The notes beneath the pieces are model-generated. The model did no database searches, was not told where the DNA came from, and worked only from the letters and a program-made list of their open reading frames with translations. From Calditrichota bacterium (GTDB lineage Bacteria; Zhuqueibacterota; JdFR-76; BMS3Abin05), in contig JAADHR010000047.1 in assembly GCA_013151735.1 (NCBI GenBank), positions 11,569-55,578 on the forward strand: a stretch of DNA of 44,010 nucleotides, read 5' to 3'. Below are positions 7,876 to 15,012 of the stretch, piece after piece. The position numbers and the translations under genes are program-made. Each line of letters begins with the position of its first letter. Positions within the stretch are counted from its first letter, which is position 1.

Positions 7876-8259
7876 ATGAACAGGCACATCATTTCAACCG
7901 ATCAGGCTCCGGCGGCCATCGGCCCCTACAGCCAGGGCGTTTCAGCAGAAGGATCGTTCATCTTTACAGCCGGGCAAATTCCAATCAATCCGAAAACCGG
8001 AGAACTCCTTTCGGGTGATATCCAAACCCAAACGCGGCAGGTTTTGGAGAATGTAAAGGCCGTTCTGAAGGCTGCGGGTGCTGGACTGGAAAATGTGGTT
8101 AAAACCACCGTATTTCTGTTGGATATGAACGATTTTGCAGCGATGAATGAAGTTTATGCCCAATATTTTCCTCAAAATCCTCCGGCCCGGTCGGCTGTTC
8201 AGGTGGCCCGATTGCCCAAAGACGTCAAAATTGAAATCGAATGCATAGCGGTTGTGTGA
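7876..8259 (+). CDS. ridA: RidA-family 2-iminobutanoate/2-iminopropanoate deaminase
   Basis: A 127-residue cytoplasmic protein that hydrolyses reactive enamine/imine intermediates from PLP enzymes, protecting other enzymes from damage. Family features: [12 protein letters not shown] at the N terminus, [15 protein letters not shown], and the C-terminal signature [23 protein letters not shown] with the catalytic Arg and terminal Glu. GGAGG at 7863-7867 is ideally placed for the ATG. It sits 12 bases after the HD-GYP gene and is followed almost immediately by a lipid kinase. Its position seems to be housekeeping rather than pathway-specific. Confidence 0.95.
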
Positions 8260-8261
8260 AC

Positions 8262-9167
8262 ATGGCTGAGCAATCGGATAAACGCTACTTCGTTATTCTC
8301 AATCCTCACTCGGGACGGGGCAAAGCCGCGAAACTGCGGCCCAAAATCGAAGAGACCCTGCGCCGGAAAAATCTGGATTTTGTTCTTGTAGAAACCCAAG
8401 GGCAGGGGCATGCCGAAAAGCTGGCCCGGGAGGCTCCTCCGGACTTTGACGTGATTGTGGCGGCCGGGGGAGATGGCACGGCCAATGAGGTGGTGAACGG
8501 TCTCATGAAAAATCCACGCCCCATGGGGTTGATTCCCACGGGCTCCGGGAACGATTTTGCGCGGGCCATGGCCATCCCGTTTCAGTGGCAAAAGGCGATT
8601 GACGTTCTGATTCAAAATCAGGAAAAGCGAATTGACGTGGGTTGGGTGAACGGACGCTACTTCCCCAACGGATTTGGCGTGGGGTTCGACGCCCTTGTTG
8701 TTCTGGAAAGCTCAAAAGTCACCCGCCTGCGGGGATTTTTAATCTACCTCTATTCGGTTTTGAAAAGCATCTTCTTCTATTCCAGCCCCCATTTGACCAT
8801 TCATCTGGACAATCGGCACAAAATTGAGGGACGTATTTTTATGCTGACCGTCGGGAACGGGGTTTCGCTGGGAGGCGGCTTTTTGCTGACCCCGAATGCC
8901 CAAAACAACGACGGAATTTTCGATGTTTGCGTGATCCACCACTTGAGTAAACCCCAGATTTTTTGGCATTTGCCAAAGGTTTTCTGGGGCGGGCACGTCA
9001 AAATCAAACCGGTTGAAATGCTGCAGGCCAAGGAACTCGTTGTGAAATCGACGGGGCCGGTGGGCGGGCATGTGGATGGTGAGATCGTTGAGATGGATCG
9101 TCAGGAATTCCGGGTGAAGATTTTTCCGAAAGCCCTTTCCGTGATCGGAGGAAGCCCCGGTGAGTAG
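8262..9167 (+). CDS. Diacylglycerol kinase-family lipid kinase (DagK/YegS type)
   Basis: A 301-residue soluble lipid kinase of the DagK/YegS/sphingosine-kinase fold, expected to phosphorylate diacylglycerol or a related lipid at the inner membrane. Motifs: YFVILNPHSGRGKA (N-terminal nucleotide motif), AAGGDGTANEVVNGLM (the GGDGT ATP site), LIPTGSGNDFARAM and, near the C terminus, GGHVDGEIVEMD. ATG 8262 is preferred; the frame is open back to 8241 but that start would lie inside ridA. The length is typical. The neighbouring lipid genes (exporter, UbiA, GGR, CDP-alcohol transferase) make a membrane-lipid role plausible; the substrate is not determined. Confidence 0.88.
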   Translation: MAEQSDKRYFVILNPHSGRGKAAKLRPKIEETLRRKNLDFVLVETQGQGHAEKLAREAPPDFDVIVAAGGDGTANEVVNGLMKNPRPMGLIPTGSGNDFARAMAIPFQWQKAIDVLIQNQEKRIDVGWVNGRYFPNGFGVGFDALVVLESSKVTRLRGFLIYLYSVLKSIFFYSSPHLTIHLDNRHKIEGRIFMLTVGNGVSLGGGFLLTPNAQNNDGIFDVCVIHHLSKPQIFWHLPKVFWGGHVKIKPVEMLQAKELVVKSTGPVGGHVDGEIVEMDRQEFRVKIFPKALSVIGGSPGE

Positions 9168-11997: not shown

Positions 11998-12978
11998 ATG
12001 AAATCGTTGGCAAAACCGTTTGATTACATTTTTATTCTGAGACCCGTATTATTCTATCCGGTTTGGACGGTTTTTCTGGCGGGTGCACTTTCCGTTGGGA
12101 TGGCGCCTCAGGGGCATGGCTGGCCTCTTTTCAAACTGGATGCTTTTCACGGGGCCTGGGGGGATCTTGGGTGGGCGTTGCTCAGTTATTCCCTGCTCAT
12201 GGGAACCGTTTTTATTTTAAATCAATTAACGGATGTTGGTTCGGACAAGCGCAATTCCAAACTGTTTCTTATTGCAGATGAGCACATTTCCGCCAAGGCC
12301 GCCGTTCGGGAAGGCATCCTTATTTTGGTGCTGGGACTGCTGGCGGGTTTGAAAACCTCGGGATGGTTCCTTGGAGTGTGGGTGTTGTCGCTGCTCATTT
12401 TAGGAGTAGGCTACAGCCTGCCGCCCTTTTTGTGGAAAGACCATCCCATCAGAGGCCTTGTGACCAATTTACTGGGCGGCTTGCTCACATTTTTTGCCGG
12501 CTGGCTGAGCGTGGGATCCCCTTCGGTCGCCATGGTTTTTCATGCGCTGCCGTATATTTTTGCGGTGGGCTCCGTCTATTTTCTGACAACCATTTTGGAT
12601 GCGAAAGGCGATCTGCATTCACATAAAATTACATTTGCCGTTCGATATGGAAAACAAACGACCATTCGAATGGCCATTTTATTCGACTCAATCGCCCTCG
12701 TTCTGGGATTTCTGACCCGCGACTGGATTGTTTTTATTCCGGCGCTTCTTTCATATTTTTTGTTTGTATTTTTGATCTTTAAAAACGATAATCTTTGGCT
12801 GAATCGAATAACCCGATTACCCATTTTGCTATTGAGCCTGATGGTGGCGGTTTATTTTCCAATTTATTTTGCCGGTATTCTGGGGATTTTTCTCGTTTCG
12901 AAATGGTATTATCACGTTCGGTTTGGTTTGAATTACCCTTCGCTGAATCCGTCCTATGGTGAGAAGGAGGTTTTATGA
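11998..12978 (+). CDS. UbiA-family membrane prenyltransferase
   Basis: A 326-residue polytopic inner-membrane protein. The two Asp-rich Mg-diphosphate motifs of the UbiA family are present: NQLTDVGSD (Asn75, Asp79, Asp83) and DAKGD (Asp201, Asp205). Each is followed by a hydrophilic loop (DKRNSK; LHSHKITFAVRYGKQ), and at least seven hydrophobic helices are visible. The family moves a polyprenyl chain onto aromatic rings (menaquinone, chlorophyll, heme O) or onto geranylgeranylglyceryl phosphate (archaeal DGGGP synthase). The usual RPxxxG after motif one is replaced by LFLIADEHIS, so substrate is open. It overlaps the ferredoxin by 4 bases, then the GGR gene follows. That favours a lipid or quinone whose prenyl chains are later reduced. 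No quinone-pathway genes are nearby. Confidence 0.85.
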   Translation: MKSLAKPFDYIFILRPVLFYPVWTVFLAGALSVGMAPQGHGWPLFKLDAFHGAWGDLGWALLSYSLLMGTVFILNQLTDVGSDKRNSKLFLIADEHISAKAAVREGILILVLGLLAGLKTSGWFLGVWVLSLLILGVGYSLPPFLWKDHPIRGLVTNLLGGLLTFFAGWLSVGSPSVAMVFHALPYIFAVGSVYFLTTILDAKGDLHSHKITFAVRYGKQTTIRMAILFDSIALVLGFLTRDWIVFIPALLSYFLFVFLIFKNDNLWLNRITRLPILLLSLMVAVYFPIYFAGILGIFLVSKWYYHVRFGLNYPSLNPSYGEKEVL

Positions 12979-13151
12979 TCAGGATCAAAGAAGATCGCTG
13001 TGATTTTTGTGGAACCTGCGTGTCTGTTTGTCCGGTGGATTGCATTGAATTGCGGGAAACAGTCATCAAAATAGATGAGAAAACCTGTACAGATTGCAAA
13101 TTGTGCGTGTACGTTTGTCCCATTGAAACCCTGGAGTTTGTCGATGAGTGA
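12975..13151 (+). CDS. Small 2[4Fe-4S] ferredoxin
   Basis: A 58-residue gene easily missed because of its size. It starts at ATG 12975, overlapping the prenyltransferase stop by 4 bases, with AAGGAGG at 12964-12970. It carries two full cluster motifs: CDFCGTCVSVCP and CTDCKLCVYVCP, the classical CxxCxxCxxxCP pairs of clostridial-type ferredoxins. Its end overlaps the next gene by 8 bases. It should be a low-potential electron carrier in the cytoplasm. Being wedged between a prenyltransferase and a geranylgeranyl-reductase-family flavoprotein, it very probably supplies electrons to that reductase. An adjacent ferredoxin plays this role for the Methanosarcina lipid reductase. Confidence 0.92.
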   Translation: MIRIKEDRCDFCGTCVSVCPVDCIELRETVIKIDEKTCTDCKLCVYVCPIETLEFVDE

Positions 13152-14349
13152 TCATTACGATGTCATTGTTATTGGTGCAGGGCCGGCCGGTTCAATGGCG
13201 GCCTGGCATGCCTCACTGGGCGGAGCAAAGGTATTGGTGCTGGAAAAGGACCGCGATATCGGCTTGCCGGTTCGCTGTGCCGAAGGAGTGGGAGCCGCCG
13301 GACTTCAGAGTCTTATTGAAGCCGACCCCCGGTGGATTGCGAATAAAATTGAGGGAATTAATCTGATTTCTCCACACGGAAAGCGGGTTCATCTGGCAAA
13401 CGAGGATTTCGGGTATGTCCTGAACCGCAAATTGTTCGACAATTTTTTGGCGGAAAAGGCCTCGAAAGCAGGAGCCGAAATCTTAACCAAGGCTTATGCG
13501 GAAGAGCTTCTTTTTGATGAAAAGGGTGACGTGAACGGTGTTGTTTTTTCACGCTTCGGAAAACGCCTGTCCCTGCGGGCAAAAATTGTTATGGGGGCCG
13601 ACGGGGTGGAGTCCCGTGTGGGGCGCTGGGCCGGTATCCGAACGCAATTAAAACTCAGGGATATTGAAACGTGCGTCCAGTTTACGATGGCCAATGTGGA
13701 TGTAACGCCGAGCGATTGTGATTTTTACTTTTCTCACGAACGTGCGCCCGGAGGTTACATCTGGGTGTTTCCCAAGGGGGATGGAATTGCCAATGTCGGT
13801 CTCGGAATTTCCGGTGAATACGCACAATACCAATCGCCGCTGCGCTATCTGGAGGATTTCGTACAGGAACATTTCCCGAAAGCCTCCGTTTTAACAACAA
13901 CCGTGGGCGGAGTCCCCGTTGCACCCACCAATAAGCAAATTGTAAAAAACGGCTTTATGTTGATCGGCGATGCCGCGCATCAGGCCAATCCCATTTCTGG
14001 CGGCGGCATTGTCCCGGCCATGGTTGCCGGAAAGCTGGCCGGACAGGTGGCGGCTGAGGCGGTTCAAACGGGAGATGTTTCCGCAGCGTTTCTCAAAAAA
14101 TATGAGCGTCAGTGGTATAAATCCGAGGGCAACACACACAAAATCACCTATCGGCTAAAGGAGGCCGTTTATAAACTGACGGACGATGATTTAAACAAAA
14201 CAGCCGATTCGATTCTTTCCCTTCCGGAAGGAAAGCGCACAATTGTGGCTGTCTTTAAAAAGGCGCTGTATAACAAGCCTTCACTTATCCTGGATGCATT
14301 GAAGGTTTTTAAGATGAGCATCAGTGAAGTCTTTGATCCGTTAAGCTAA
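13144..14349 (+). CDS. Geranylgeranyl reductase-family flavoprotein (archaeal lipid-reductase type)
   Basis: A 401-residue FAD enzyme of the GGR family. ATG 13144 begins MSDHYDVIVIGAGPAGS, placing the FAD GxGxxG motif at residues 10-15; an upstream extension to 13075 would lie within the ferredoxin and is rejected. Other motifs: VLEKDRDIGLPVRCAEGVG (the substrate-side Cys motif), MGADGVESRVGRWAG, YIWVFPKG at 205-212 (the YxWxFPK signature of archaeal-type GGRs), and MLIGDAAHQANPISGGGI for FAD. Such enzymes saturate double bonds of geranylgeranyl chains in lipids, chlorophyll or menaquinone. With the ferredoxin overlap and a UbiA enzyme upstream, reduction of prenylated membrane lipid is the best guess. 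There are no photosynthesis genes here. Confidence 0.87.
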   Translation: MSDHYDVIVIGAGPAGSMAAWHASLGGAKVLVLEKDRDIGLPVRCAEGVGAAGLQSLIEADPRWIANKIEGINLISPHGKRVHLANEDFGYVLNRKLFDNFLAEKASKAGAEILTKAYAEELLFDEKGDVNGVVFSRFGKRLSLRAKIVMGADGVESRVGRWAGIRTQLKLRDIETCVQFTMANVDVTPSDCDFYFSHERAPGGYIWVFPKGDGIANVGLGISGEYAQYQSPLRYLEDFVQEHFPKASVLTTTVGGVPVAPTNKQIVKNGFMLIGDAAHQANPISGGGIVPAMVAGKLAGQVAAEAVQTGDVSAAFLKKYERQWYKSEGNTHKITYRLKEAVYKLTDDDLNKTADSILSLPEGKRTIVAVFKKALYNKPSLILDALKVFKMSISEVFDPLS

Positions 14350-14364
14350 TCCGCCTTTGGCGGG
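14350..14364. repeat. Short TCCGCC/GGCGG hairpin
   Basis: CCGCC TTT GGCGG (14351-14363) forms a tight 5-bp hairpin directly after the reductase stop. Similar TCCGC-type hairpins sit in gaps at 28144-28166 and 36642-36656, suggesting a dispersed intergenic repeat. Confidence 0.45.
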
Positions 14365-14400
14365 TTGGGAGACAGGAATGCAAATTCCCCCAAAAGGAGA

Positions 14401-15012
14401 ATGGTTTTGAGACAAAAAGTTCCTCGTGCCAAAAGGGATTCTCAGGTTAAAACGCTTCTCAAACCGGAGAGTAAAAATGAAATATGGACGATCTCGAATA
14501 TTTTAACGACCATTCGTATTTTATTGCTTCCCTGGATCATTTATTTTTTTGTGATGAATACGCGAAAATCCCAGCGTATTGCCCTGATTCTGATGATTAT
14601 TGCGGCGTTCACGGATTTGAGTGACGGCTTTCTGGCCCGGAAACTCAATCAGAAAACAAATCTTGGAAAAATCTTGGACCCCATTGCCGATAAGCTGGGA
14701 CTGTTTACCATTGGAATCTTGCTGGTCATTTACCGCAATCTCCCGGTCTGGCTTTTGGTAATATTGCTTGTCCGGGATTCGTTTTACGCCGTCTACGGAT
14801 ACACGCTTTTGCGCAAAGGGGTTGTTCCCGAGGCCAGGCTCCCGGGGAAACTCACAACCACATCGCTTGCCCTGACATTTTTATTTTATTTGTTGAAAAT
14901 ACGGCTGCTAAGCACTATATTTTTGTATATCAGTACAGTGATGATTGTGATTTCGGTGGTCGATTACGCACGGCGGTTTCTTAATGCCAAACAAGGGCTG
15001 GGATGGAAATAG
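14401..15012 (+). CDS. CDP-alcohol phosphatidyltransferase (PgsA-like)
   Basis: A membrane enzyme of about 203 residues. It transfers a phosphatidyl-type group from a CDP-activated lipid to an alcohol, for example glycerol-3-phosphate. The family motif DG..AR........G...D...D is complete in DLSDGFLARKL followed by GKILDPIADK. Four or five membrane helices follow a positively charged N terminus. The start is unclear: AGGAG at 14395-14399 is only 1 base from ATG 14401 but 7 bases from TTG 14407, which may be the real start; an upstream TTG at 14365 is also open. PgsA is the default call. Lying 51 bases after the GGR gene, it could instead act on an isoprenoid CDP-lipid; this is speculation. Confidence 0.85.
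   Translation: MVLRQKVPRAKRDSQVKTLLKPESKNEIWTISNILTTIRILLLPWIIYFFVMNTRKSQRIALILMIIAAFTDLSDGFLARKLNQKTNLGKILDPIADKLGLFTIGILLVIYRNLPVWLLVILLVRDSFYAVYGYTLLRKGVVPEARLPGKLTTTSLALTFLFYLLKIRLLSTIFLYISTVMIVISVVDYARRFLNAKQGLGWK

Follow-up and report, generated by a model that had tools for sequence, protein, structure and literature searches.

A ferredoxin–reductase operon with a distinct UbiA-family protein in a Calditrichota bacterium that encodes archaeal-type lipid genes

The four-gene operon

We analysed a 44,010-nucleotide stretch (the window) of contig JAADHR010000047.1 from the draft genome of a Calditrichota bacterium (GCA_013151735.1), in which four forward-strand genes bring together a UbiA-family protein, a ferredoxin, a reductase of archaeal type and a predicted head-group enzyme. 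The first gene (11998..12978) encodes a putative membrane prenyltransferase of the UbiA superfamily, 326 aa long (Pfam UbiA 63 bits) and assigned here to a distinct family, UbiA3. It is followed by genes for a 58-aa 2[4Fe-4S] ferredoxin (12975..13151; Fer4 51.5 bits), a 401-aa FAD-dependent geranylgeranyl reductase (GGR) of the archaeal digeranylgeranylglycerophospholipid (DGGGPL) reductase type (13144..14349) and a 203-aa CDP-alcohol phosphatidyltransferase (14401..15012; CDP-OH_P_transf 121 bits), all four proteins exceeding the Pfam cut-offs. The UbiA3 and ferredoxin genes share four bases (ATGA, 12975-12978), the ferredoxin and GGR genes share eight (13144-13151), and 51 bases separate the GGR stop from the transferase ATG at 14401. 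An initial annotation of this DNA had described the same genes, overlaps and gap, and our re-reading and the Pfam matches agree with it. The start of GGR was taken as the ATG at 13144, its longest open reading frame (ORF) beginning at 13075. A Shine-Dalgarno-like AAGGAGG (12964..12970, forward strand) inside the end of UbiA3, four bases ahead of the ferredoxin ATG, may provide translational coupling of the ferredoxin.

The reductase had been recognised as archaeal-type from its YxWxFPK signature, and this is borne out. The motif is present as GYIWVFPK, together with the FAD site GAGPAG, and the closest solved relative is the T. acidophilum digeranylgeranylglycerophospholipid reductase (PDB 3oz2, E=1.8e-75). 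The protein passes the catalytic domain PF22578 (GGR_cat; 93.8 bits, cut-off 27) and the GG-red-SF model TIGR02032 (239, cut-off 158.8). In the comparison with MenJ and chlorophyll enzymes that had been proposed, archaeal lipid reductase models lead: NF041160 is the best of all NCBIfam models (262.8 bits), and MenJ (73.7) and ChlP (75) score far lower. The genome has no other close GGR. The ferredoxin carries two CxxCxxCxxxCP motifs, CDFCGTCVSVCP and CTDCKLCVYVCP. In Methanosarcina, a ferredoxin adjoining GGR raises GGR activity (PMC9385802), and we infer that the FAD of the window GGR would be reduced by its own neighbouring ferredoxin, the likely electron donor. The window and M. acetivorans (Isobe et al. 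2014, reviewed in PMC9385802) both pair GGR with a small 2[4Fe-4S] ferredoxin, but the M. acetivorans ferredoxin lies downstream of GGR and that of the window upstream, overlapping both neighbours in a bacterial context. The CDP-alcohol transferase reaches 102.6 bits against the PgsA model TIGR00560 (cut-off 109.1) and is probably a PgsA-like, ordinary head-group enzyme.

UbiA3 as a third UbiA family

Three UbiA proteins are encoded in the genome: UbiA3 and the products of two other loci, L002 and L003. The L002 protein (C202) is a digeranylgeranylglyceryl phosphate (DGGGP) synthase (DGGGPS), matching MjDGGGPS (6m31) with E=1.1e-37 and carrying all signature residues, and the L003 protein passes the menA model TIGR00751. 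In the UbiA tree that the initial annotation had proposed (maximum likelihood, 57 proteins, several reference branches being long), UbiA3 and 29 relatives form one clade (support 100/99) with AfUbiA nearest (97/95), separate from the DGGGPS clade (96/98), which holds 6m31 and L002, and from the MenA clade (100/100). An identity as MenA or heme O synthase was ruled out by the tree, and the best MenA-type model gives the window protein 20.5 bits against a cut-off of 277.

UbiA3 has every Mg/prenyl-diphosphate residue of AfUbiA (N, D, D, Y, K, D, D), namely N75..D79..D83 in motif 1, Y139/K147, and D201..D205 in motif 2, the two Asp motifs reading NQLTDVGSD and DAKGD; the motif 1 equivalents of N62-D66-D70 are kept in 26/26 active UbiA3. 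Five residues that are invariant in the 18/18 DGGGPS examined (E176, K179, D180, R77 and P78) are all lacking in the window protein. Across the family, position 176 is Y, F, S, A or T, position 179 is T in 26/26, position 180 is T in 24/26, positions 77 and 78 are F/Y and L/F, and the RPxPSG segment after motif 1 is absent. The initial annotation had correctly noticed that RPxxxG is missing after motif one, a property of the whole UbiA3 family. Its proposal that this UbiA adds the second chain is not supported, since the protein lies outside the DGGGPS clade and is without the DGGGPS-invariant residues; the new acceptor that it flagged agrees with the loss of these residues beside a retained prenyl site. 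From the tree and these residues, the window UbiA is taken to be a third, distinct UbiA family.

Membership of DGGGPS was thus rejected on the separate clade and the missing residues. We regard it as unlikely that UbiA3 is nevertheless a second, divergent DGGGP synthase that replaces or duplicates the ordinary one: most genomes keep both genes, and UbiA enzymes group according to the acceptor they use (Hemmi 2004, cited in PMC9385802). Such a role would fit the position of UbiA3 directly beside DGGGPS and geranylgeranylglyceryl phosphate (GGGP) synthase (GGGPS) in Poribacteria, its degeneration in a clade that retains DGGGPS, and three genomes in which DGGGPS was not found and GGGPS and UbiA3 are kept (G008, 94% complete, and G070 and G071 of one genus, 83% and 96%), absences that may be gaps in metagenome-assembled genomes (MAGs).

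An AlphaFold model of UbiA3 (predicted local distance difference test score 92.1) predicts a UbiA fold, with 4tq4/4tq3 (AfUbiA) as best fold matches. AfUbiA (PDB 4tq3-4tq6; PMC4106721) is at once the best profile match, the nearest protein in the tree and the best fold match (template modelling (TM) score 0.66/0.75), and it has the same Mg/diphosphate residues, with the second motif likewise of the form T..D...D. The two proteins are only 20-21% identical, and in UbiA3 the C-terminal helix is longer and carries an invariant tail, YY..R....YP. Since the acceptor of AfUbiA is unknown (PMC4106721), this likeness provides no function for UbiA3. MjDGGGPS (PDB 6m31, 7bpu) has the same superfamily and fold (TM 0.56/0.64), and UbiA3 keeps the equivalents of its N62, D66, D70, Y125, D183 and D187; unlike it, UbiA3 lacks E176, K179, D180 and RPxPSG, falls in a separate clade and is 14-15% identical. 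The tail, YYxxRFxxxYP at 304-314 in the window protein, has YY and YP invariant in 106/106 distinct proteins and R308 in 105/106. A tenth transmembrane helix is not claimed, as the only break in the last helix of the model is at P287. We did not find the UbiA3 family in the literature searched, and a search for UbiA/DGGGP in Poribacteria returned no paper.

The weak NCBIfam matches of UbiA3, all far under cut-off, include homogentisate phytyltransferase and chlorophyll synthase among the best, and A. fulgidus GGR-family enzymes reduce menaquinone (PMC10821996). The product of the trio could on these grounds be a quinone, phytylated or partly saturated, or a tocopherol-like lipid, with GGR reducing geranylgeranyl diphosphate or a quinone chain and UbiA3 serving an aromatic acceptor. 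We consider this improbable, however, in view of the genome's own MenA, a GGR that is like lipid reductases and not MenJ, and a linkage in Poribacteria that is with GGGPS and DGGGPS. UbiA3 also stays in a dozen genomes where the ferredoxin and GGR are lost, and so is not in need of this GGR's product.

Pathway genes across genomes

The 3.95-Mb draft genome (225 contigs, 95.4% complete) has one GGGPS homologue (C199; PF01884 146.6 bits; TIGR01769 218.5 bits, cut-off 161.6), the DGGGPS already described, whose NCBIfam equivalog score of 235.6 lies under the cut-off of 296, and two trans-polyprenyl synthases. Because these are present together with an archaeal-type GGR, an archaeal-type ether-lipid pathway is, on the evidence of its genes, encoded in the genome beyond the cassette alone. 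The earlier guess of such a pathway therefore holds for the genome; of the genes to be sought, GGGPS and polyprenyl synthases were found and CarS was not. UbiA3 groups with neither MenA nor heme O synthase and a GGGPS is present, so that the reading survives.

Archaeal-type lipid genes in bacteria of the Fibrobacteres–Chlorobi–Bacteroidetes (FCB) group are already published. KSB1 and Marinimicrobia were surveyed for them by Coleman et al. 2019 (PMC6431249), and E. coli expressing the GGGPS and DGGGPS of Candidatus (Ca.) Cloacimonetes made unsaturated archaeol lipids (PMC7852524). The present genome has in common with the FCB pathway (Villanueva et al. 2021, PMC7852524) GGGPS, DGGGPS, an archaeal-like GGR, bacterial head-group enzymes and the lack of CarS, and, as in Ca. 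Cloacimonetes, glycerol-1-phosphate (G1P) dehydrogenase was not found in it. It differs from the Ca. Cloacimonetes pathway in the extra UbiA, UbiA3, and in a GGR that stands in an operon with ferredoxin and UbiA3.

Among 82 genomes of this uncultured phylum, a deep-branching one whose named relatives are recorded as KSB1, Calditrichota or Deferribacteres, UbiA3 occurs in 80, GGGPS in 72 (49/49 good genomes) and DGGGPS in 75 (48/49 good genomes). The order purF-UbiA3-ferredoxin-GGR-(pgsA)-ftsY-rimO is kept throughout, with a pgsA-like gene beside GGR or UbiA3. In 58 of the 69 other genomes that are informative (BLAST and motif evidence combined), ferredoxin and GGR come next after UbiA3, and the arrangement of the trio is therefore not due to chance. 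Contamination of the MAG was ruled out because purF-UbiA3-ferredoxin-GGR-ftsY recurs phylum-wide and GGGPS and DGGGPS are found in nearly all good genomes. Neomarinimicrobiota-type loci, flanked by purF or otherwise, have UbiA3-ferredoxin-GGR in 20/20 examined. Upstream of the operon, the same gene string includes a lipid kinase of the YegS/DAGK type (PF00781, PF19279; window 8241-9167), which Marinimicrobia strings contain as well.

In Poribacteria, seven loci (L167, L173, L180-L183, L185) hold a UbiA3-DGGGPS-TrmH-(ferredoxin-GGR)-GGGPS cluster, in which UbiA3 has DGGGPS as its neighbour 21-85 bases away and GGGPS follows about 2-4 kb further; two of the seven include ferredoxin and GGR. The flanks are bamA, skp and lpxD upstream and hrcA or grpE/dnaJ downstream. 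Co-localisation of GGGPS and DGGGPS in bacteria had seemed restricted to Cloacimonetes (Villanueva et al., PMC7852524), and the Poribacteria cluster extends it beyond them. The gene between DGGGPS and GGGPS encodes a TrmH/RlmB-type RNA methyltransferase (L167:7948-9327, L183:7286-8581). The GGR frame at L167:9677-10870 has an in-frame stop near its start, and GGR of L173 is in two pieces.

This second context bears on whether UbiA3, ferredoxin-GGR and pgsA merely share an old housekeeping string (purF ... ftsY, rimO) by coincidence, which we judge the least probable of the alternatives. The flanking housekeeping genes do keep a constant order across the phylum, and in one genome (G041) UbiA3 has left the string (L109, L244) with purF-ferredoxin-GGR-ftsY still together; yet Poribacteria hold the same genes with GGGPS and DGGGPS in another context (lpxD, hrcA/grpE), and start and stop codons overlap in the window. 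Outside the phylum, GGGPS is present in 27 and DGGGPS in 28 of the 29 genomes that have UbiA3. UbiA3 is thus kept together with the archaeal-type lipid pathway in four bacterial phyla (KSB1, Neomarinimicrobiota, Poribacteria and WOR-3), a spread that is a lower bound because named genomes were scanned with a single peptide pattern; the scan for UbiA3 covered phyla other than Cloacimonadota and Bacteroidota.

GGGPS lies directly 5' of a CpsB/CapC-family PHP-type phosphoesterase (PF19567, 181.3 bits) in 17/18 of the phylum loci checked, the remaining one lying at a contig end (L001:2247-3050; L069-L083, L246, L247, L249). In the loci checked from Marinimicrobia and Poribacteria, GGGPS was not seen with this neighbour.

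Proposed pathway, losses and pseudoenzymes

We favour, with moderate confidence, the interpretation that the operon is a saturation operon combined with a new prenyltransferase of the same archaeal-type ether-lipid pathway. By analogy with homologues of known activity, GGGPS, encoded elsewhere in the genome, would link glycerol phosphate to a first geranylgeranyl chain, and DGGGPS, likewise encoded elsewhere, would attach the second to give digeranylgeranylglyceryl phosphate. The ferredoxin would then reduce the FAD of GGR, which would hydrogenate the isoprenoid chains, and the PgsA-like protein and other bacterial CDP-alcohol enzymes may attach head groups. UbiA3 would be a further Mg-dependent prenyltransferase. 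Since its prenyl-diphosphate/Mg site is complete and its acceptor site different, it probably transfers the prenyl group to some other acceptor, one made from GGGP or parallel to it. One speculative candidate is dephosphorylated geranylgeranylglycerol, in view of the phosphoesterase gene that follows GGGPS and the absence of DGGGPS-specific polar residues from UbiA3.

Several observations weigh against this interpretation. The operon lies away from both GGGPS and DGGGPS, and ferredoxin-GGR is missing beside UbiA3 in 11/69 genomes. GGR stays below the DGGGPL reductase equivalog cut-off (262.8 vs 780 bits, NF041160), such cut-offs being set for archaeal genera. CarS is absent from the genome and found in 1/82 of the phylum, and no PF13685 match indicates a G1P dehydrogenase in the genome; Cloacimonetes are published as having the same two gaps, and CdsA can take the place of CarS there (PMC7852524). 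As a G1P dehydrogenase probe PF13685 matches 13/14 controls, E. coli included, and is too unspecific, so only its absence from this genome was used. Within the phylum, only G048 and G049 (L256, L255) match the G1P dehydrogenase family strongly, at about 112 bits. Catalysis by UbiA3 is not always needed, as one clade has lost the catalytic residues. The lipids and every enzyme activity of this organism, moreover, are deduced from its genes, their families and clades, synteny and co-occurrence.

Many genomes of the f22 and f23 families have lost ferredoxin and GGR as a unit, which leaves UbiA3 directly next to pgsA (L115, L117, L210, L234-L238; genomes G068, G077, G070, G069, G073-G076), and UbiA3 is therefore independent of GGR. 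Some of these genomes retain only GGR paralogues of about 30% identity.

Every catalytic residue is kept in 102/106 UbiA3; of the remaining four, one has a gap owing to a split ORF. Pseudoenzymes in which both Asp motifs have degenerated occur in four genera of family f12 (L106 in G026, L196 in G024, L197 in G025 and L198 in G027). They form one clade, are about 45% identical with saturated synonymous divergence (dS), and have full-length intact frames and the conserved tail, in place between purF and ferredoxin-GGR. An intact frame at saturated synonymous divergence is hard to explain by decay, which suggests that UbiA3 has a role beyond catalysis in the f12 clade. A broader version, in which UbiA3 serves partly as a scaffold in the membrane or as a lipid-handling partner that binds pathway enzymes through its invariant tail, catalysis being secondary, would account for the YY..R....YP tail of all four pseudoenzymes. 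We give it little weight, as nearly all UbiA3 keep their catalytic residues, the binding partner of the tail is putative and the model does not settle its topology. Returning to the preferred pathway reading, we suggest only tentatively that UbiA3 performs an unrecognised step on an acceptor unused by archaea, leading to an undescribed class of isoprenoid ether lipids, and has become a non-catalytic membrane partner in one clade.

What is new here is the dedicated bacterial ferredoxin-GGR operon and the UbiA3 family, with its tie to the pathway in four phyla, its clustering in Poribacteria and its clade of pseudoenzymes. Whether living bacteria build mixed archaeal/bacterial membranes is central to the lipid divide, and for whole phyla a candidate enzyme of chain saturation can now be named together with its likely electron donor, along with an uncharacterised second prenyltransferase that travels with the pathway. 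For AfUbiA, which has a solved structure and no known acceptor, UbiA3 is the closest relative found. The gene sets are short, which makes them testable in E. coli strains made for archaeal lipids. In two loci, L202 (G009) and L203 (G010), UbiA3 lies within a longer open frame of 628-634 aa, a possible upstream fusion or misread start.

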